From: Ruminococcaceae bacterium YAD3003
GTDB lineage: Bacteria > Bacillota > Clostridia > Saccharofermentanales > Saccharofermentanaceae
Direction of reading: 5' to 3'
DNA length: 48,764 nucleotides
Assembly: GCA_900107185.1 (NCBI GenBank)
Contig: FNPA01000017.1
Location: 1 to 48,764, forward strand
Part shown: piece by piece, positions 22,330-47,122 of the stretch
Layout of the letters: each line of letters opens with the position of its first letter
How positions within the stretch are numbered: position 1 is the stretch's first letter
Position numbers and translations under genes: made by a program
The notes under the pieces: generated by a model
The model's database searches: none
The model's input: the letters and a program-made list of their open reading frames with translations, nothing else
What the model was told of the DNA's origin: nothing

Positions 22330-23901
22330 GTGGAGACTGATAATCTTGCAAAATTTAAGAAGATAGTTGCAAGCCTGCCGCAGGAAAAGCGTATGCAGAT
22401 CCGTGACAAGATGAAGGGCATGTCCCAGGAAGAGCGCATGGCTGCAATTGACCGTATGGTCGAGATTTCCGAACAGCGTAAGATTGAGATTACAGCAAGA
22501 CCTAAGGTTCTCGCTGGAAGCGGACGTGTTCCTTATGCTCCTGCTACTGATTACGAAGTTAAGACTCCGCGCACATGGATCGAGAAGCCTGTTTCTGACG
22601 ATTCAAAGATTGAGATCGTTAAAAATCCGGGCAATAAAAAGTCTGTCAATAACAAGCCTGTTCGCAAGACTAATGATCCCAAGGCTGCAAGGCCTCAGCA
22701 GAAGCCTATTAAGAAGGCAGAACCTTCCGTTGCCAGAGCAGGACGTGATCTGGTAGCAAAGCAAATTGAACAAAAAGAGTTAGCTGCTATTGAGGCTGAA
22801 CTGAAAAAAGAGAAGACTAAGGCTACAGTTAAGAAGGCTGCAAAGATTACTTTTTCTGTTTTAGGCCGTGTTCTTGCTACAGTAGTGTGCACTCTGGCTA
22901 TTGCCGTTGCAGGATTCTATGTATTCCTTCAGATAATAATGAGAGGTCCTTCTGCTCATTTGAGAGACCAGTTCGTACCTTCCGTTATGGAATCTTCTGC
23001 AGGTGGCGTTCTCGCAAAGTGGATCCTCTCTGATGAAGAGATCGAAGCTATCATGAACAGCAATAAAACCAAAGAGTTTGATGAGATCACAGATATTACT
23101 CTCGTTAATGCTATGGCAGCTGATCAGAACAACAAGAATGCAAACGGTGCAGGTGAGGCTGTTAATGAATTAGATCCTGATGGTGACGGAGTCGAAGTTC
23201 ACGATATCAGTGGCCCGATGTATCACGGCAAGATGCTCGTTATTTATGATCCTTCCAGAATCATGGTAGCAACTATTGATAACTACAATCACAATGGTGC
23301 AGGCCTTACACTCAAGGAGCTTATTGATAAGTACGGAGGTGTCGGTGGAATCAATGGAGGCCAGTACGAAGATACAAACGGTATGGGTATTGGCGGATGG
23401 CCTGAAGGAATCGTTATTTCCGAAGGTGAACTCAGAATGGGTTATCCCGGTGGAACATACGATGTTTACGGCCTTACAAAGGAAAACGTTCTCGTAGTCG
23501 GAAGAATGACCGCACAGTATGCACTCGATATCGGCGTAAGAGATGCTGTTTCATTCGGACCTGCACTCATCGTTAACGGTGTACCTGCAAACTACAGTGG
23601 TTCAGGTGGCGGACTCAATCCTAGAACGGCTATCGGCCAGAGAGAAGATGGAGCTATTCTCCTCCTCGTTATCGAAGGAAGAAAGACATCTTCAATGGGC
23701 GCAACAATGGCTGATCTTATCGATGTAATGCTCGATTTCGGTGCTGTTAATGCGGCTAACCTCGATGGCGGAATGTCATCAGCTATGTGGCTTAACGACG
23801 AAGAACTCGTATCAAGTTCATCAATCAGAGTTTCAAGACAGATGCCTACAGCATTTATTATCCTGCCTCAGGGCACATCAGCCGGATCTGTGGAGGAGTA
23901 A
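22330..23901 (+). CDS. Membrane-anchored phosphodiester glycosidase (NAGPA domain) protein
   Basis: 523 aa from GTG 22330 (AAGGGGTT upstream). A cytoplasmic Lys/Pro/Glu-rich region (about 1-170) precedes one membrane helix (about 178-200), and the C-terminal 250 residues are a NAGPA domain outside the cell. Recognisable blocks are GGVGGINGGQY, GGWPEGIVISEGEL, FGPALIVNG, LNPRTAIGQ and AANLDGGMSSAMW. The human homologue removes GlcNAc from GlcNAc-phosphodiesters; bacterial members are thought to act on exopolysaccharide or wall-polymer phosphodiesters. The next gene starts at the following base, so they form an operon. The long cytoplasmic tail is unusual and might bind a cytosolic partner. Confidence 0.85.
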   Translation: METDNLAKFKKIVASLPQEKRMQIRDKMKGMSQEERMAAIDRMVEISEQRKIEITARPKVLAGSGRVPYAPATDYEVKTPRTWIEKPVSDDSKIEIVKNPGNKKSVNNKPVRKTNDPKAARPQQKPIKKAEPSVARAGRDLVAKQIEQKELAAIEAELKKEKTKATVKKAAKITFSVLGRVLATVVCTLAIAVAGFYVFLQIIMRGPSAHLRDQFVPSVMESSAGGVLAKWILSDEEIEAIMNSNKTKEFDEITDITLVNAMAADQNNKNANGAGEAVNELDPDGDGVEVHDISGPMYHGKMLVIYDPSRIMVATIDNYNHNGAGLTLKELIDKYGGVGGINGGQYEDTNGMGIGGWPEGIVISEGELRMGYPGGTYDVYGLTKENVLVVGRMTAQYALDIGVRDAVSFGPALIVNGVPANYSGSGGGLNPRTAIGQREDGAILLLVIEGRKTSSMGATMADLIDVMLDFGAVNAANLDGGMSSAMWLNDEELVSSSSIRVSRQMPTAFIILPQGTSAGSVEE

Positions 23902-25047
23902 ATGAAATCTCAGGAAGGCACAACCGAAAACAATAAAAAGGCTAAGAAGAACGGGAAGAAATTGGATTTCTTCCTCGTTTTTCTGATTTCCTGGCTTATT
24001 GTAGTTACCGGTTTTGTAGCATGGTTCCTGTTGAGATTTAATGATTTTGCTGCCAGCTATGAGGAACAGTATCAGCTGTCTCTTCCGTATCATTTAGCAG
24101 ATGAGATCCTGGTTCATTTTAATGATCACGATGTTGATTACATCATGAACAACATGAAGGAGAAACCTGCTCTGACAAGTTTCGAAGATGAGACAGTCAT
24201 AAGAGAGTACATTGAATCTTTGATCGAAGATAAACAATTCATTTACGACGAGACAGACAGTTCCAGAGAAGATGCTCCGGAATATTATATAAAGACTCAG
24301 GATGGTCTTATCGTTGCACGTGTTCTTCTTACAGAGGACAAGACCAAGAATCTCCCTTATGGTTTTAAGGCATGGCAGGAGAGCAACATTGAGTTCTATA
24401 CTGTTGCTTCGCATGAGTTCAATATAACAGCTCCTGAGACCTATAAAGTTTTCGTTAATGGTGTAGAACTTAACGCAGTTAACTGCACATACGATATAAC
24501 CGAGTCTGAACTTAATCAGTATGTACAGCCTTATGCGACGATTCCTAATGACGTTCATTATCAGGGCAAGGGCCTTTATGCGGCTCCCGTAGTTACTGCA
24601 GTTGATTTTGCTGGTAATGAGTGTGAGATGGTTTACGATGAGACTACTGATTCTTACACAGTTGGGTTTGCCAATAACTTTGATGGTTATGATGAGCTCG
24701 CTGAGTTTGCTATCTCGTTTACATCTACTTTCGCGAATTATATTTCACAGGATGCCGGCAATTATGCTCTGGATAAGTATTTCCCGAGCGGCAGCCAGGC
24801 ACTCAGTTACATCAAGAGAAACTCTTCAAGAGAACTCTATACAAGACACGGAAGTGTATCAATTCATAACGAAGAGGTCCGTGACTGCATCGTGTTCTCT
24901 GAAGATGTTGTTTACATGGAAATCTATGTTGAGCAGTGGATGGAAATGTACTGGGGATCTGATGAACCCGAAGTCATTCCTACTGATGCACACGTATACT
25001 TTGTCAGAGTTGACGGCAAGTGGCTCGTAGGCGGAATTCAGTATTGA
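23902..25047 (+). CDS. Exported membrane-anchored protein paired with the NAGPA gene
   Basis: 381 aa. The N terminus is lysine-rich (KKAKKNGKK), then one membrane helix (about 23-44), then about 335 extracellular residues with acidic, Tyr-rich strands and no Cys cluster. The last 80 residues (CIVFSEDVVYMEIYVEQWME, then VYFVRVDGKWLVGGIQY) recall an NTF2-like/SnoaL closing strand, but this is weak. ATG 23902 directly follows the NAGPA stop with GGAGGAG upstream. Topology and pairing suggest a partner in wall or exopolysaccharide processing. I do not recognise a family. Confidence 0.65.
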   Translation: MKSQEGTTENNKKAKKNGKKLDFFLVFLISWLIVVTGFVAWFLLRFNDFAASYEEQYQLSLPYHLADEILVHFNDHDVDYIMNNMKEKPALTSFEDETVIREYIESLIEDKQFIYDETDSSREDAPEYYIKTQDGLIVARVLLTEDKTKNLPYGFKAWQESNIEFYTVASHEFNITAPETYKVFVNGVELNAVNCTYDITESELNQYVQPYATIPNDVHYQGKGLYAAPVVTAVDFAGNECEMVYDETTDSYTVGFANNFDGYDELAEFAISFTSTFANYISQDAGNYALDKYFPSGSQALSYIKRNSSRELYTRHGSVSIHNEEVRDCIVFSEDVVYMEIYVEQWMEMYWGSDEPEVIPTDAHVYFVRVDGKWLVGGIQY

Positions 25048-25195
25048 TTTTCTGGTTCCACGAGACTTTGTAATTCCGCATTTTTACCACAGAAATACTT
25101 CGTTTTTGTAACGCTCCTGAAACTTTGTCCTTTATTTAAAATGATACAATCAGGATAGACTATTATCGGACAATTATCTGAAGGGGGTACGCGTC

Positions 25196-28100
25196 TTGGA
25201 ATTTACTTATTCGAATGACAGCTTTTTGCCGTACGATTCTTTTGACTATATTTTTAACGAACGTGAAATGCCGGAATTCGGTAAAGTTGCTTCTCCTTAC
25301 ATGAAGCCTCTTAATACGTGGAGATTCTATCTTGCGAACGGACAGAATGAGATTCCGTTTGGCGTTATGAATTCTTCTTTTGATGATTCCGACTGGCCTC
25401 TTGTTAATTGTCCTTCAACATGGCAGACAGAAGGATTCGGTCTGCCTCAGAACCTCATTTATGATTATCCGATAAGACTTGCTGAGAATGCCGCTCGAAA
25501 GGAAGAGACAATCAGCGATAAATACATTATGAAGTCTACAGGAAATGAGGACGACGAAGTCGGTATTTACAGAACGACAGTTGTTTTCACTCCTCAGGAA
25601 ATTGAGAGAGCTATTTATATTGAAGCATCAGGCATCAGCGGAAGCTTTAAGGTGTTTATCAATGACAAACTCCTTTGCAATTCACATGCTCTGTTCACCA
25701 GAAAGCGTCTTCTTATTTCCGGACTCGTACAGGCGGGTGTTAACCACATAACGATTATTGTTAACCGTTATGACAGAGATGATGACGGCCATATCATTCT
25801 TGATATGATGAACTACGGTTTCTCAGGAATCTTCAGACCCATTATGATCGTTGAAGATTCATTGCTCGAGTTATCCAATCTTCATCTCAAACTCGAATAT
25901 GTTCCTTCAGCTTATATTTCTGAAGTTGCGAAGATGGATGCGCTCGCAGTCCGCGAAAATGTTTCCCGTGTTCCTCACGGTGATTTCATGATCAAGGTCG
26001 ATTTCTCTTTGCGCAATCATACGAACTACATGATCCCATATTCTGTAAGAATCTCACTTCTTGAGGCCAGGGCAGAGTACGATCCTTACAAGCTCCCGTT
26101 CGTAAATATCAAGGGACAGAGCGAGCCTGTAGTTGGTGTTGTTGATGCACTCAAAGAGACACGTGCGAGCACAGACTTTGTTGCTCTCGATGTAGCTCAG
26201 TGGTCTGACTGCACACCTGTCCAGTATGACATTATTTTCGAGGTCATGGATTCAGAGAATAAAGTCATCTGCGCTAAAAAGAAGAGATTCGGTTTCAGAA
26301 CAACTGAGATCGTTCAGGATAAGCTTAATATCAATGACCGCCGCGTTAATCTGATGCTCGTTAAATACTACGAGTTCGATCCTCAGGGCGGTATTGCTGT
26401 TCCGCAGGATCGTATGCGTCAGGATATCATCCTCATGAAGCGTGCCGGCATTAACGGCGTTATAGCTGACGGTATGCCTTTATCAGATGAATTCCTTAAC
26501 CTATGTGACCAATATGGCATGTATGTAATTGCGACTTCAGCTGATTTCTATCTGAGAGATTATGTTGAGAGCTGTATGAACCATCCTTCCATTGTCATGT
26601 GGGGTGTGCAGAAGTATAACTTCAATCCTGAAACCGCATTAAGAGTTAAGCATGAGTGTATCCTCATTGACGATACCAGACCGTGGTATTGCGAGGTCGT
26701 AAAGCCTGTTAATGCCAATGGTAAGAAGGTGAGATCTCAGGGTAAGGTTTCTGATTTGAGACCGCTTCCGAGTGATGCCGGTGCTATATTCGGACCTTGG
26801 GAAGATCTCTGTCTCGACAGAAAGAAGATTTTCGGTCTTAACAGAACAGGAAGAAATCTTTTCGAGACGATTCCGGGCAGAACCAGATTTACAGATGATG
26901 ACACCATGTATAAGTGGATCCATCACGCAGATCTTGTTGGCGGTAAACAGAAAGAGAACTCATGTATCGGCCAGGGTATCGTTGATGCTGAACGTAACCC
27001 GCATCCGATCTACCTTGATATTAAGAAGCAGTGCCAGACAATAGCTATCTTTGCTACTGCAGATGACCCTGCAAATCTTACAATGCGTAATTCCAACCAG
27101 TTCGGTTATACCGAAGAATTGGATCTCGAATGGAAGATACTTCTCGGCGGCAGAGCAATCATGTCGGGCAGAGGCGTCATTCCTGAAATTGAACCGTTTG
27201 GTTCCAGAACATTGAGATTCCCGTTCTCAACAGAAGTATTCACTACACCGGGTTGGGCACAGGGCAAGGCTGAATTTATCGAGATGTACATGAATGCTCT
27301 GTCAAAAGAGCTCGTATTCGATATCACATTAAAGCTGCACAAAGATACTTACTATGCAAAGGCAGGATATGAAGTTGCTTTCTATCAGGATGTTCTTACT
27401 GATAACATCGCCAGTCCTGTTGGTAAGATTACAATTTCTTCGGGTCTTGGCAGTGGTGAGAAACCTGTCGAAAACAACGCTATGCAGTTGGGTTCAGGTA
27501 AGACAGCAGCCGGAAATGAATTGGGTTCAGGTATGGAGGATGAGAATCTTCCCGGTATTATCGAAGACCAGTCTTTGCTTACAGAAGAAGATGCAGGCAG
27601 AGTTGAACGTATCGAAAACAATGGCCAGCTCGCTGAACTTAATGCTGAGTATGCAGACGGATCTGCACCTGTAGAAGAAACGATCAGTTCTGTAATCACT
27701 AAAAATGCTGTTTCAACCGTATCTCACGGATTATTCGTAGGAAAGGGCAATCTTAAGATCGGATTCTCCAGAGATCCCGGAAGCCTCGAGGCCCTCGAAA
27801 TTGCAGGATATAACTTCCTTAAGGGACCTCTTGCACCGAGTTTCTACCGTTGTCCTTCCAATATCGACAGAACGGACAGGAGCTTTATCCTCGCGAGAAC
27901 AGTATTCTCTAAAGAGAGCGACTACGAACAGATCCAGAATTCAATCAAGTTCGTAGGTTCTGAATACAGCTGCAGAGACGGTGAGTTCACCATGATCTCA
28001 AGATATAAGTCTTTCGCGATGCACGGTGAAGTAATCGTTTTCTATGAAGTTCCTAAGGCTGATGTGATCAGAGTTACTCTGGAATTCAAGCCTAAGTACG

Positions 28101-28588
28101 ATATGGTCAGATACGGAATCAGATTTCCGATCGTTAAAGACGATTGTGTATGCTCATGGTACGGCAGAGGACCTGGTGAGTCATATGTTGACCGTAAGAA
28201 TGCTGCAAGACTTGGAGTTTATTCAGCAGGCGCAGGTAAGATCTACCATCCTTATGCAAGACCTGCCGAGAATTCATCTCATACGGATACCCAGATCGTT
28301 AAGCTTACAAACGGTGATGGTGATGCAATTGAGATCAGAAGAATTGGTGCTAATCCGAGGTTCGATTTTACAGTCCTTCCGTACACTCCTGAGCAGATGA
28401 ATGAGTTCCTCCACGAAGAGCAGCTCATGAATAACGATTTCTGTGAATTCTTCTGTGACTTTGCAGCAAAGGAAATTGAGCGTACACAGGATAACATTAC
28501 AACACAGCCCGTTAAGAAGGATGTTAAGTATCGTGAGACATTTGAGATCCGTCTGGTTCCGAGACAGGGCTATGTTGAAGAGGCTTGA
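25196..28588 (+). CDS. LacZ-like GH2 protein lacking recognisable catalytic residues
   Basis: 1130 aa from TTG 25196 (GGGGG 8 nt upstream); no signal peptide, so cytoplasmic. The domain order matches a LacZ-type GH2 beta-galactosidase: a sugar-binding sandwich (LNTWRFYLANG, DDSDWPLVNCPSTWQTEGFG), MMNYGFSGIFRPIMI, a barrel part, domain 4 and a C-terminal small-chain domain (YGIRFPIVKDDCVCSWYGRGPGESYVDRK...HPYARPAENSSHTD). The barrel keeps INDRRVNLMLV and NHPSIVMW (462-469) but loses the active site: NRHE reads KYYE (390-393), DEANIETH reads ATSADFYL (446-453), and the acid/base Glu of WSLGNE is Tyr474. No CEYAHAMGNS nucleophile block is present and that half of the barrel is short. An acidic, Gly-rich insert lies at about 755-830. 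Confidence 0.75.
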   Translation: MEFTYSNDSFLPYDSFDYIFNEREMPEFGKVASPYMKPLNTWRFYLANGQNEIPFGVMNSSFDDSDWPLVNCPSTWQTEGFGLPQNLIYDYPIRLAENAARKEETISDKYIMKSTGNEDDEVGIYRTTVVFTPQEIERAIYIEASGISGSFKVFINDKLLCNSHALFTRKRLLISGLVQAGVNHITIIVNRYDRDDDGHIILDMMNYGFSGIFRPIMIVEDSLLELSNLHLKLEYVPSAYISEVAKMDALAVRENVSRVPHGDFMIKVDFSLRNHTNYMIPYSVRISLLEARAEYDPYKLPFVNIKGQSEPVVGVVDALKETRASTDFVALDVAQWSDCTPVQYDIIFEVMDSENKVICAKKKRFGFRTTEIVQDKLNINDRRVNLMLVKYYEFDPQGGIAVPQDRMRQDIILMKRAGINGVIADGMPLSDEFLNLCDQYGMYVIATSADFYLRDYVESCMNHPSIVMWGVQKYNFNPETALRVKHECILIDDTRPWYCEVVKPVNANGKKVRSQGKVSDLRPLPSDAGAIFGPWEDLCLDRKKIFGLNRTGRNLFETIPGRTRFTDDDTMYKWIHHADLVGGKQKENSCIGQGIVDAERNPHPIYLDIKKQCQTIAIFATADDPANLTMRNSNQFGYTEELDLEWKILLGGRAIMSGRGVIPEIEPFGSRTLRFPFSTEVFTTPGWAQGKAEFIEMYMNALSKELVFDITLKLHKDTYYAKAGYEVAFYQDVLTDNIASPVGKITISSGLGSGEKPVENNAMQLGSGKTAAGNELGSGMEDENLPGIIEDQSLLTEEDAGRVERIENNGQLAELNAEYADGSAPVEETISSVITKNAVSTVSHGLFVGKGNLKIGFSRDPGSLEALEIAGYNFLKGPLAPSFYRCPSNIDRTDRSFILARTVFSKESDYEQIQNSIKFVGSEYSCRDGEFTMISRYKSFAMHGEVIVFYEVPKADVIRVTLEFKPKYDMVRYGIRFPIVKDDCVCSWYGRGPGESYVDRKNAARLGVYSAGAGKIYHPYARPAENSSHTDTQIVKLTNGDGDAIEIRRIGANPRFDFTVLPYTPEQMNEFLHEEQLMNNDFCEFFCDFAAKEIERTQDNITTQPVKKDVKYRETFEIRLVPRQGYVEEA

Positions 28589-28605: not shown

Positions 28606-29220
28606 ATGACTCAAAAAGAAAGAATGCTCGCTAATCTTCCATATAAATCATGGATGGACGGACTCAGCGAAGATCGCATGGAATGCAAGAAAAAGATCTA
28701 TAAGTACAATAACCTTGAGCCTGATAAACAGGCAGAGAGATCCGCTCTTCTCCGTGAGATCTTAGGAAAGACTAAGGACGGTTATCTCTGCATAGAATCT
28801 CCTTTCCACTGTGATTATGGTTATAACATTGAGGTAGGTACTGATTTTTTTGCCAACTACAATTTCATTGTTCTTGATGTCGGCAAAGTAAAGATCGGTG
28901 ACAGCTTTATGTGCGGTCCTAATGTTCAGATCTGCACGGCAGGCCACCCTCTGCATCCTGAATCACGTAATTCCGGATACGAATACGGAATCGACATCAC
29001 GATCGGTGATAACGTATGGATAGGCGGTAATGTTCTTGTTTGTCCCGGTGTTCACATCGGCAACAATGTTGTTATCGGCGGTGGTAGTGTTGTTACAAAA
29101 GATATTCCTGATAACATGCTCGCATACGGTAATCCGTGCCGTCCTGTAAGAGAGATAACAGAAGCAGACAGGGATTATTATTTCAAAGACAGAAAATTCG
29201 ATGTCGAAGATTATAAGTAA
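28606..29220 (+). CDS. Maltose/galactoside-type O-acetyltransferase
   Basis: 204 aa from ATG 28606 (GGAGG 8 nt upstream; ATG 28591 would overlap that site). The left-handed beta-helix of hexapeptide repeats covers about 60-185, with the catalytic His in TAGHPLHPE and the N-terminal MAT helix (YKSWMDGLSEDRMECKKKIYKYNNL). It transfers acetyl from acetyl-CoA to a sugar hydroxyl, usually maltose, glucose or galactosides. The gene follows the GH2-like gene by 17 bp, so they are one operon; in Escherichia coli lacA follows lacZY, which makes this pairing suggestive. A terminator lies at 29252-29284. Confidence 0.92.
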   Translation: MTQKERMLANLPYKSWMDGLSEDRMECKKKIYKYNNLEPDKQAERSALLREILGKTKDGYLCIESPFHCDYGYNIEVGTDFFANYNFIVLDVGKVKIGDSFMCGPNVQICTAGHPLHPESRNSGYEYGIDITIGDNVWIGGNVLVCPGVHIGNNVVIGGGSVVTKDIPDNMLAYGNPCRPVREITEADRDYYFKDRKFDVEDYK

Positions 29221-30193: not shown

Positions 30194-32470
30194 TTACTTA
30201 TTCTCGTCTATTACTGTCTGGATACGCTTTTCCATAACAGGTATTACGTCATCAAGAGATTTGCTTCCTGAGAAATAAGAGGCTGATTCTTCTCTTAATA
30301 TGATCTCTATATTGCCGCCGGCATTCATTCCCATATAAGGTGAAGACATCAGATCAATATACTTAGCGATCGTTTCCTTAGACAGTGGATTTGTGTTCGG
30401 GAGTCCGTCATCAGTAACTGATTCGTTGTAGTAGTTTAATTCTGATTCCGTAATTGTCATTAATGCTTTGCAGTTGATCGGGTTAGCATAATTGGTTTTG
30501 CATTGAGCCTCGTAAGACATTATGTACTTAACAAATTCGGCACATGCTTCAGGGTATTTAGAATCGGCCATTACACTTACGAATTCGGTTGAAACAGTTT
30601 GCGGACCTCTGCCGTCAGGTGAGGGGAGACCGTAAATTCCAAGACCTTCACCGTAGTCTTCATAGCAATCGATATAACGATCAAAACTATAAAAGGTACC
30701 GTAAACTGCGCCGAGTTTGCCTTCCAGATTAGCATTGTGTTCTTCAATACTGCTTACAACATCTGAAACCATGCTGTTATGACCTGTTTCATCAGGAACT
30801 TCGTTGTCGACACCATATTCATCGACAAATGAGATGAGTTGTCTGAAATTGTCGTTGTTAAGATCGACTTTGCCGTCTCTGATATACAAATCGCTCATCG
30901 TCAGAAACAGTTTCGTGAAGCATTCAGCTTTGCCCATTTTATAACCGGGTGTGTTGTACAACGGATCGGTTCCATTGCATATATCATCGACAAATTCCAG
31001 GTACTGCTCATAAGTAAATCCGACCTGGCCTTCAGGCACATTTACAGATGCGGTTATTATTCCTGATACCGAAATATCAAGAGGAACACGGTACAAAGAA
31101 TTACCGGTCATGGAAGCATCAATTGCATTGGTGAAGAATTCTTCCTTAAATGCTTCGCTGTTAATATCAAGATACGGAGCGAGATCGACATATTTGATGC
31201 TGTCTGATGGGTCAGCCTTAGGATTGCTGAGAATAAGAATATCAGCCTCTGTATCTATATATTCGCCTGAAGCATCGTAAGGAATAACGTATTTAACGAA
31301 GAAAGAAGCATTCTGTTCATTAAACAGCTTCATTGCATAGAAATCGGAATTACTGGGTTCTGCTCCGTCATCATTTGACAGAGTTAATACAGTCTTACCG
31401 GCATTGGGATTTGTATCGCATTTTGTAAGATGTACCAGTTCATAATCAAATGAGCCTAGCGAATTATAGATCTCATGGGCGAGGATAATTTCATCTCCCG
31501 AATCACTGATGAATAATAGCTGTGACTCAATCAGTTCATCCAAAGGCATATTGATATCAGAATACTCGCAGATTTTTGTGAGATCTCCTGTTTGCTCATT
31601 GACGAAATTGAAACCCGTAAGATCTCTTGAAATTGACTTGCCGGAGGCAGTATCGATCTGTGTGTCGAAGCTTCCCAACAGACCGGTAAGCTCCGTTGTT
31701 TCGCCCGTTTTCAGATTAAGAGAGGCATAAACCATCTCATAATCGTCATATCCAAACAGGATAATATTGTCTTCTGAACCTTGCAATATTCCATATAGAT
31801 CTACATATCTATTGAAGACATCGGAAGGATAAGTCTCATAAAAAGAACCGTCGGGAGACTCAACTGAAATAGTCTGTCCGTATTTTGGATTGATTATGCA
31901 GATAGTGTACCCGCCTGTTGTATACATGTTTGTAAGACGCAAAGGCTCGTCATATCGGTTGTATACAGGAGGAAGAGTAAAGAGTTCACCATTTAAGTAG
32001 TAGTCAACATATTTACCATTCTCGGTGTCCAGTGTAATCTCAAGTGTATTAAGTTTGCCGTCAGAGACCCATGCATTCACAAGGAACCTGTAATAGCCTT
32101 CCGGCGTAAAGTTTACATAATCCGTTTTCTCTATGAGTTCACCTTGTAAAGAGAGTTTCAGAATCGACTGCTCATAGTACTTCAAATAATCAGTATCTTT
32201 TAAATTGCGCTCTTCTTTTGGAATCTTCTTCGAAGCATCGACTGATACAAAGATGAATTCATCGTACGTTCCGATAGTATTAAAGGAAATATATTCATAA
32301 TCCTTCTTTGAATACAGATCAGATACCATAAAACTCTCGCACTCATACCATGGATCATCAGCCTTAATGACTTCATATTCTTTGTTTTTGGATGCACATG
32401 AAGCAAGAGGTGCCATTAATGACACTGCGAGAAATATGGAAATAATCTTGTCTCTTAAGCTGGTTTTCAT
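30194..32470 (-). CDS. Large lipoprotein with a solute-binding-like C-terminal domain
   Basis: About 758 aa from ATG 32470. The signal peptide MKTSLRDKIISIFLAVSLMA ends in a lipobox with Cys (LASC, then ASKNK), so the protein is lipid-anchored outside. Residues about 40-370 are beta-rich, with repeated strand patterns that could be a propeller. From about 370 the sequence resembles an ABC sugar-binding protein (DADILILSNPKADPSD, later YPEACAEFVKYIMSYEAQCK). No permease or ATPase gene of the sugar type is adjacent. The gene is divergent from the response regulator and has TATAAT exactly 6 bp before ATG with no Shine-Dalgarno, so its mRNA is probably leaderless. It may sense the signal of the adjacent two-component system. 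Confidence 0.75.
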   Translation of the reverse strand: MKTSLRDKIISIFLAVSLMAPLASCASKNKEYEVIKADDPWYECESFMVSDLYSKKDYEYISFNTIGTYDEFIFVSVDASKKIPKEERNLKDTDYLKYYEQSILKLSLQGELIEKTDYVNFTPEGYYRFLVNAWVSDGKLNTLEITLDTENGKYVDYYLNGELFTLPPVYNRYDEPLRLTNMYTTGGYTICIINPKYGQTISVESPDGSFYETYPSDVFNRYVDLYGILQGSEDNIILFGYDDYEMVYASLNLKTGETTELTGLLGSFDTQIDTASGKSISRDLTGFNFVNEQTGDLTKICEYSDINMPLDELIESQLLFISDSGDEIILAHEIYNSLGSFDYELVHLTKCDTNPNAGKTVLTLSNDDGAEPSNSDFYAMKLFNEQNASFFVKYVIPYDASGEYIDTEADILILSNPKADPSDSIKYVDLAPYLDINSEAFKEEFFTNAIDASMTGNSLYRVPLDISVSGIITASVNVPEGQVGFTYEQYLEFVDDICNGTDPLYNTPGYKMGKAECFTKLFLTMSDLYIRDGKVDLNNDNFRQLISFVDEYGVDNEVPDETGHNSMVSDVVSSIEEHNANLEGKLGAVYGTFYSFDRYIDCYEDYGEGLGIYGLPSPDGRGPQTVSTEFVSVMADSKYPEACAEFVKYIMSYEAQCKTNYANPINCKALMTITESELNYYNESVTDDGLPNTNPLSKETIAKYIDLMSSPYMGMNAGGNIEIILREESASYFSGSKSLDDVIPVMEKRIQTVIDENK

Positions 32471-32476
32471 AGATTC

Positions 32477-32482
32477 ATTATA
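32477..32482 (-). promoter_or_regulatory. -10 box of the lipoprotein gene, leaderless arrangement
   Basis: On the minus strand TATAAT (32482-32477) is followed by GAATCT and ATG 32470. The -35 at the expected place (CTATTT) is poor. Confidence 0.55.
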
Positions 32483-32536
32483 AATCAATATCACCGATAA
32501 AATAGTTAAGATACAGGTAACATTTGTGCCGTAACC

Positions 32537-46390: not shown

Positions 46391-47122
46391 TTATTCAACA
46401 TGATTTTCAACGTATATCTTGAAGAAAGCCTGTTCGAAGCTTTCAGTTTCTGTTAGCGCGATGAGTTCTTCAACACTGCCTTGTGCCGCGATCCTTCCGT
46501 CAACTAATACAGCGATATCATCGCAGAGTTCTTCTGCTACGGAGAATATGTGTGTTGACAGGATGATTGCGTGTCCCTGTTCTTTGAGTTCTTTGAGATA
46601 ATCGGTAACCTGTTTGGATGTAAGAATATCCAGACCGTTTGTAGGTTCATCGAAAATAATGATCGGCGGATTGTGAATAAGACTTATGGCAATAGAGATC
46701 TTTTGCTTCATTCCCGTTGATAATTCATGGATCTTTTTGTCTGCAAAAGGTCCGATGCCGAATCTTTCGAAACTCTCCTGTTTTCTTGTATCGAGTTCTG
46801 CTTTGGGTATGTCGTAAAGTTCAGCAAAGAAATCAAACAATCTGTTAGGAGTAGATAGGGGATCCAATTTGATCTCATTTGTAAGGAATCCGATCTTCTT
46901 GTGAATCTCCAACAGATCCTTATCTGAAGTTAAACCGTCTATAACAATACGGCCTGATGTCGGTTTCATCAGTGTCGAAATCATCTGCATCAGTGTTGTC
47001 TTTCCGGCACCGTTAGGTCCTAACAGACCGAAAATCTCACCTTCGTGAACATCAAAACTGACACCCCTGATCGTTTCTTTATCTTTTGTATAACTCTTGT
47101 GAACGTCGATTACACTGATCAT
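46391..47122 (-). CDS. ABC transporter ATP-binding protein (NatA-like)
   Basis: 243 aa. Walker A GPNGAGKTT, signature LSTGMKQK, Walker B IIIFDEPTNGLD and H loop STHI are intact. A short C-terminal tail (VEELIALTETESFEQAFFKI) resembles NatA. It overlaps the permease gene before it by 4 bp and is followed by the permease-CPBP gene after 10 bp, so one ATPase serves both permeases. NatA drives Na+ efflux in Bacillus, but the same architecture is used for peptide or drug export, so the substrate stays open. Confidence 0.94.
   Translation of the reverse strand: MISVIDVHKSYTKDKETIRGVSFDVHEGEIFGLLGPNGAGKTTLMQMISTLMKPTSGRIVIDGLTSDKDLLEIHKKIGFLTNEIKLDPLSTPNRLFDFFAELYDIPKAELDTRKQESFERFGIGPFADKKIHELSTGMKQKISIAISLIHNPPIIIFDEPTNGLDILTSKQVTDYLKELKEQGHAIILSTHIFSVAEELCDDIAVLVDGRIAAQGSVEELIALTETESFEQAFFKIYVENHVE

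Follow-up and report, generated by a model that had tools for sequence, protein, structure and literature searches.

A LacZ-type protein without catalytic glutamates, a candidate glycoside hydrolase family 2 pseudoenzyme conserved in a bacterial family

LacZ proteins and the architecture of the present protein

The beta-galactosidase LacZ is a textbook enzyme. In E. coli LacZ, the acid/base is Glu461, the nucleophile is Glu537 within the CEYAHA block, and Glu416 and His418 are ligands of Mg. Non-hydrolytic glycosidase folds are also known; klotho (GH1), YKL-39 (GH18), and CyRPA (GH33) are described, in the accessible part of one source, as being used for binding (PMC7828330). These proteins are animal or protozoan and belong to other GH families, whereas the protein described here is bacterial and of LacZ type and, compared with them, is also without constant sugar contacts. 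A literature search, with most subscription papers outside its reach, found no paper on a bacterial GH2 pseudoenzyme.

The window that we analyzed is the whole stretch of 48,764 nucleotides from contig FNPA01000017.1 of Ruminococcaceae bacterium YAD3003. On its forward strand, positions 25196-28588 hold an intact open frame of 1130 codons with a TTG start, encoding a putative LacZ-type GH2 pseudoenzyme of 1130 aa, and a ribosome-binding site, AAGGGGG (25181-25187, same strand), stands 8 bases 5′ of the start. No signal-like N-terminus was recognized by eye in the protein, in agreement with the cytoplasmic location assigned to it in a preliminary description made from the sequence alone. The Pfam matches above cut-off, namely GH2_N, GH2_C (positions 3-78 of 302 only), LacZ_4, and Bgal_small_N, stand in LacZ domain order. 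The cut-off of the NCBIfam beta-galactosidase equivalogs (999) was not reached, the best match scoring 308.4 bits. For comparison, an alignment was made of 105 full-length orthologs, 12 LacZ proteins from the same order, eight LacZ proteins from viral contigs, and E. coli LacZ. When LacZ-invariant positions were defined as those identical in at least 20 of 21 LacZ proteins, 91 were found, of which 40 are retained (by 95 or more of the 105 orthologs), 35 are lost (retained by 10 or fewer, and some of them falling in the uncertainly aligned stretch 503-596), and 16 lie between. The domain order, a fold match, and the 40 retained positions are shared with the LacZ proteins of E. coli and T. maritima, and the derivation from LacZ that had been proposed on GH2 domain order is borne out by the Pfam matches and these positions. 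Unlike both enzymes, the present protein has lost the two catalytic glutamates, the Mg site, and most of the constant pocket residues; the nucleophile block is absent and the counterpart of the mobile loop is changed. The only other GH2 barrel of the genome (contig C10, 807 aa) is of a different type. It likewise has GH2_N, GH2, and GH2_C domains, but its barrel match covers positions 6-297 of 302, matches to LacZ_4 and the small chain are absent, and it reads NHPSIILWGVRINES, with a glutamate at the acid/base strand.

All parts of the protein are given here by residue and forward-strand position. Domain 1 (GH2_N, residues 30-220, 25283-25855), delimited by Pfam and the alignments, has lost the columns of LacZ Asn102 and Asp201 and carries a new, invariant Tyr89. 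The immunoglobulin-like domain 2 (GH2, residues 221-370, 25856-26305) was placed by a Pfam match below cut-off (PF00703, 20.6 bits against 23), and its new invariants are E225, N274, Y295, D296, and Y298. Barrel strands 1-5 (residues 371-500, 26306-26695) were recognized by alignment and were built in the predicted model. The remainder of the barrel (residues 501-625, 26696-27070) is shortened and rebuilt in the alignment, with a family motif around GPWEDLCLDR and invariant H576, Q593, and C613. Domain 4 (LacZ_4, residues 626-740, 27071-27415, by Pfam) is followed by a linker (residues 741-845, 27416-27730) that has no invariant column. Repeated LGSG motifs and acidic stretches were noted in this linker, the length of which varies. 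In domain 5 (Bgal small chain, residues 846-1121, 27731-28558, by Pfam and the alignments), the counterpart of the mobile active-site loop of LacZ bears a family motif (residues about 889-914), and the GGDD loop preceding Trp999 is shortened.

Structure prediction was consistent with this layout. A first model, from genus-only sequences, reached a pLDDT of 46.3, and a second, with eight viral-contig LacZ rows added, a mean pLDDT of 65.7 and a pTM of 0.61. The eight rows were taken from nine loci found by scanning viral contigs with a LacZ alignment; scans of these contigs with the family alignment or with one LacZ gave nothing usable. The second model has five barrel strands built, and residues 503-516 and 523-596 fall below pLDDT 50. 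It matched T. maritima LacZ 6sd0 (Z 32.7, 850 residues, 4.9 Å) and E. coli LacZ (Z 31.5), a match that the eight LacZ rows favor and that we treat as supporting evidence only. The best 50 rows of each fold search were LacZ or other GH2 chains, which has no bearing on chemistry. By sequence, the closest solved relatives are T. maritima LacZ and two Bacteroides GH2 structures.

The former active site

The catalytic, Mg-ligand, and sugar-contact roles given here are those of the aligned LacZ columns. In the query protein, NRHE of LacZ reads KYYE (residues 390-393), DEANIETH reads ATSADFYL (446-453), NHPSIVMW lies at 462-469, and the acid/base glutamate is replaced by Tyr474. These readings, and the absence of the catalytic residues, had been put forward in the preliminary description, and the alignment of 105 orthologs agrees with them. 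The acid/base column contains no Glu in any ortholog (0/105); it holds Tyr in 70, Arg in 12, Lys in 12, Trp in three, Phe in three, and five single residues, and the sole Asp occurs in one ortholog (L073). The CEYAHAMGNS nucleophile block has no counterpart in any of the 105, the stretch that follows DE..LET being a gap throughout, and the Glu537 column is kept in none, the alignment at this position being uncertain. The loss extends to the Mg site, with Glu416 kept in a single ortholog and the His418 column a gap in all 105. Asp201, His357, Arg388, and Tyr503 were replaced or deleted in every ortholog. Met502 is likewise kept in none, its column and that of Tyr503 being gaps in 105/105, and neither is Trp568, where the alignment is uncertain. 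His391 persists in 25 and Asn460 in eight of the 105, and Phe601 is not lost in every ortholog. Columns about 530-590 align differently in two alignments, and the single-position replacements of Glu537, His540, and Trp568 are uncertain. All 12 LacZ proteins of the same order, on the other hand, keep Asp201, His357, Arg388, His391, Glu416, His418, Asn460, and Glu461, as well as Met502, Tyr503, Glu537, and Trp568. Asn604, Trp999, and Asn102 carry less weight, since they are kept in six, four, and nine of these 12, respectively. The barrel is shorter than that of LacZ, as had also been proposed, because the span between Arg495 and Gly594 is reduced to 80-100 residues in the 105 orthologs vs. 111-146 in the 12 LacZ proteins. 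Near the eighth strand, the orthologs read AGxxFGxWxDLCLDR.

It could be argued that the protein is still an active glycosidase and that its catalytic residues were misplaced by sequence alignment. Residues 501-600 are uncertainly aligned and 503-596 are without a confident model, which leaves some room for this view. Since the other GH2 of the genome reads WGVRINES at the acid/base strand, we also counted the columns adjoining 474 as a check of register. Glu occurs in 10 of the 105 orthologs at 473, in three at 475, and in three at 476, and column 477, three residues past the acid/base column, holds Glu in 16 and Asp in 45 (either acid in 61/105); no consistent acid was found at 473-477 among the 105 orthologs. 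The acid/base strand itself is clearly aligned on NHPSIVMW and has no Glu, the Mg ligands are gone too, and no C-E-Y-like motif is shared by the 105 orthologs within the 140 residues after the acid/base strand. A loose C-E-Y pattern matched in 32/105, at sites unlike that of LacZ and mostly as AEYKWIHH or VEY. We therefore consider residual activity very unlikely, and hydrolysis by the GH2 mechanism appears excluded to the extent that sequence allows. Control LacZ regions from 20 genomes of the class outside the family, picked from the best-scoring hits rather than at random, all keep both catalytic glutamates (20/20 vs. 0/105 orthologs). A motif pattern alone found the acid/base in 18 and the nucleophile in 19 of these 20 controls; it missed both motifs in one (L203) and one motif in another (L206), and both glutamates were present in each upon alignment to E. 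coli LacZ.

The extent of these losses suggests that the old sugar site has been taken apart and not just switched off. Its columns are now mixed, Y89, Q593, and R1096 being nearly invariant and 451, 473, and 474 variable. The protein had been proposed to bind or sense a galactoside, and a sensor or lectin working through the former sugar site would have parallels in other pseudoglycosidases, which retained glycan binding according to the part of PMC7828330 that was available; His391, kept in 25/105, could also be taken in its favor. With the old site dismantled, a galactoside sensor is nevertheless unlikely. The four contacts Asp201, His357, Arg388, and Tyr503 are gone from all 105 orthologs, and here the earlier proposal is not supported. 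A sensor kinase gene does recur among the neighbors (in 42 of 73 loci across the family, as does a pseudouridine synthase gene, both convergent), but in each of these 42 loci it lies on the opposite strand. Binding of a sugar other than a galactoside is possible.

Distribution, descent, and selection

The gene is present in 113 of the 115 genomes of a family that we take to be Saccharofermentanaceae, including 84 of 85 genomes of the query's own genus and 29 of 30 others. It is missing from two (G074, 90% complete, and G091, 78% complete). In a sample of 391 genomes of the class, the whole barrel region was matched 11 times at 377-400 bits, each time in a family genome, and the next best match (78.5 bits) covered the first third only. 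Among 398 genomes sampled across the phylum, no full-length match was found beyond the query's own genome. A tree built from 21 LacZ proteins and 55 of the 105 orthologs groups the orthologs as a single clade (support 0.968), the stem of which measures 1.40 substitutions per site. The genera come out as one clade each, with a support of only 0.48 for the branching order of g2, g3, and g4. The simplest reading would be a single loss before the family split, with vertical descent since. The loss can accordingly be placed at the family stem, and intact relatives are available for comparison. With a LacZ relative lacking the catalytic residues kept in 113 of 115 genomes, the family offers a clean natural case of the reuse of an enzyme fold. 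Annotation by similarity could easily label these orthologs beta-galactosidase. Named records that bear an ortholog come from ruminant and horse gut. One of them, Ruminococcaceae bacterium AB4001 (L038), has a record without a MAG label and is apparently an isolate open to tests.

A few observations could point to a decaying relic: G074 and the incomplete G091 are without the gene, and eight of the 113 copies are split or truncated, several of them at contig ends. The copy from a red-deer MAG (L053:8001-11391) has no single-frame read-through and falls into two pieces, possibly through an assembly fault. However, a long open frame is found in 105 of the 113 genomes that bear the gene, and the gene is under strong constraint. 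Of the 435 pairs among 30 orthologs from the closer part of the genus, 67 had a dS below 1.2, and these gave a median dN/dS of 0.065 and a maximum of 0.089. By region, the median was 0.058 in the barrel, 0.035 in the small chain, and 0.242 in the linker (27416-27730), where alone among the regions compared selection was clearly relaxed. The presence of the gene in nearly all family genomes and the selection result contradict decay, which we regard as hardly credible; that the gene is maintained, as the preliminary description held from its open frame and ribosome-binding site, is upheld. Descent from a glycosidase family, loss of catalytic residues, and a gene under selection, sequence-level marks of a pseudoglycosidase, are found together here.

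Rebuilt residues, genomic neighbors, and possible roles

New constraint accompanies the lost residues. We counted 53 polar positions that are newly invariant (shared by 102 or more of the 105 orthologs and by less than half of the LacZ proteins), some of which fall in the uncertainly aligned stretch 503-596. Domain 5 holds 21 of them, near the mobile-loop counterpart and elsewhere. Relative to the old pocket their placement is mixed by inspection, several standing beside LacZ pocket columns. The strength with which new residues are conserved in domain 5 and the remnant of the barrel calls for a new ligand, partner, or chemistry. One possibility, which we consider doubtful but not negligible, is a neofunctionalized enzyme with a different chemistry in the rebuilt groove, and with the same reserve its working residues may be sought among Tyr391, Lys485, Tyr498, Cys539, His576, and Arg1096 or in the 889-914 loop. 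The new polar invariants, the occurrence of the gene in almost every genome of the family, and the invariant carboxylates D381, D395, and D537 of the barrel part, which could serve, speak for it. Against this, the invariant carboxylates D410, D438, D492, and D579 are common to LacZ, as is D537 in one of the two alignments, and with most barrel carboxylates thus shared, a new acidic pair is not clearly evident. It is for this reason that we place binding or scaffolding ahead of a new enzyme; the preference is a slight one, and D381 and D395 would remain candidates.

We favor a reading in which the protein is a GH2 pseudoenzyme specific to this lineage, with a binding or scaffold function in the cytoplasm, and we give this reading about an even chance of being right. 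An ancestral LacZ-type GH2 beta-galactosidase of the family would have lost its hydrolytic machinery and been kept for another task, so that an old enzyme body would apparently now serve a new purpose. The present protein would then be a large, non-hydrolytic binding or scaffold protein of carbohydrate metabolism, its rebuilt groove between barrel remnant and domain 5 holding a ligand or partner. More tentatively, and short of what we would call probable, one may picture a new cytoplasmic machine without which the family would hardly be viable, galactoside hydrolysis having been dropped in the ancestor. Its groove site, ligand-binding or catalytic, might, with the same caution, be made up of Y89, Y391, K485, Y498, C539, H576, Q593, the 889-914 loop, and R1096.

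Genomic context points to the likeliest field of action. All 29 loci of the four sister genera have a GH3 gene upstream in the same orientation. In g5 it ends 67-135 bases before the open frame (23/23 loci), and in g2 to g4 it stands at 165 bases to 4.2 kb. In six long GH3 copies the [ST]DW nucleophile motif and the KHF motif are present, and by eye their N-termini do not look like signal peptides. This pairing makes carbohydrate metabolism the likeliest field, and the GH3 beta-glucosidase retained upstream in the sister genera was probably linked to the protein in the ancestor. The partnership is not general, since the own genus has lost the neighbor: among its 44 wide loci there is one distant GH3 on the same strand (L089, 28% identity) and three further loci with a more distant GH3 on the other strand, and in the query genome the GH3 homologues are all diverged, with 38% for the best long match. 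No fixed operon partner was found among the neighbor loci of the own genus.

The sugar O-acetyltransferase gene that the preliminary description took to be co-transcribed is indeed directly next at the query locus. This Mac/hexapeptide gene (28606-29220, forward strand) probably starts at an ATG 17 bases past the stop, the longest frame running from a TTG at 28585. It is found in 22 of 35 loci of close relatives, six of them with other genes between and some loci ending at contig edges, but in none of the 73 wider loci. It is a recent neighbor, not a conserved partner, and the proposed link is weak. In four close relatives (L034, L036, L053, and L059), the pseudoenzyme gene and the acetyltransferase gene are separated by two ORFs, which are about 30% identical to the gene at 46391-47122 of the window.

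Upstream, the own clade carries metG, tatD, an NAGPA-domain gene, and a gene without a Pfam match. The last is a 381-aa ORF at 23902-25047, which has no Pfam match at E 0.01 and adjoins the NAGPA-domain gene at 22330-23901; the pair is still upstream in close relatives, and also in some members of the 69%-identity clade. Farther downstream, a 766-aa ORF on the reverse strand (30194-32494) gave only a below-cut-off match to a solute-binding protein, and it is 43-52% identical in close relatives where the adjacent gene is 79-88% identical.
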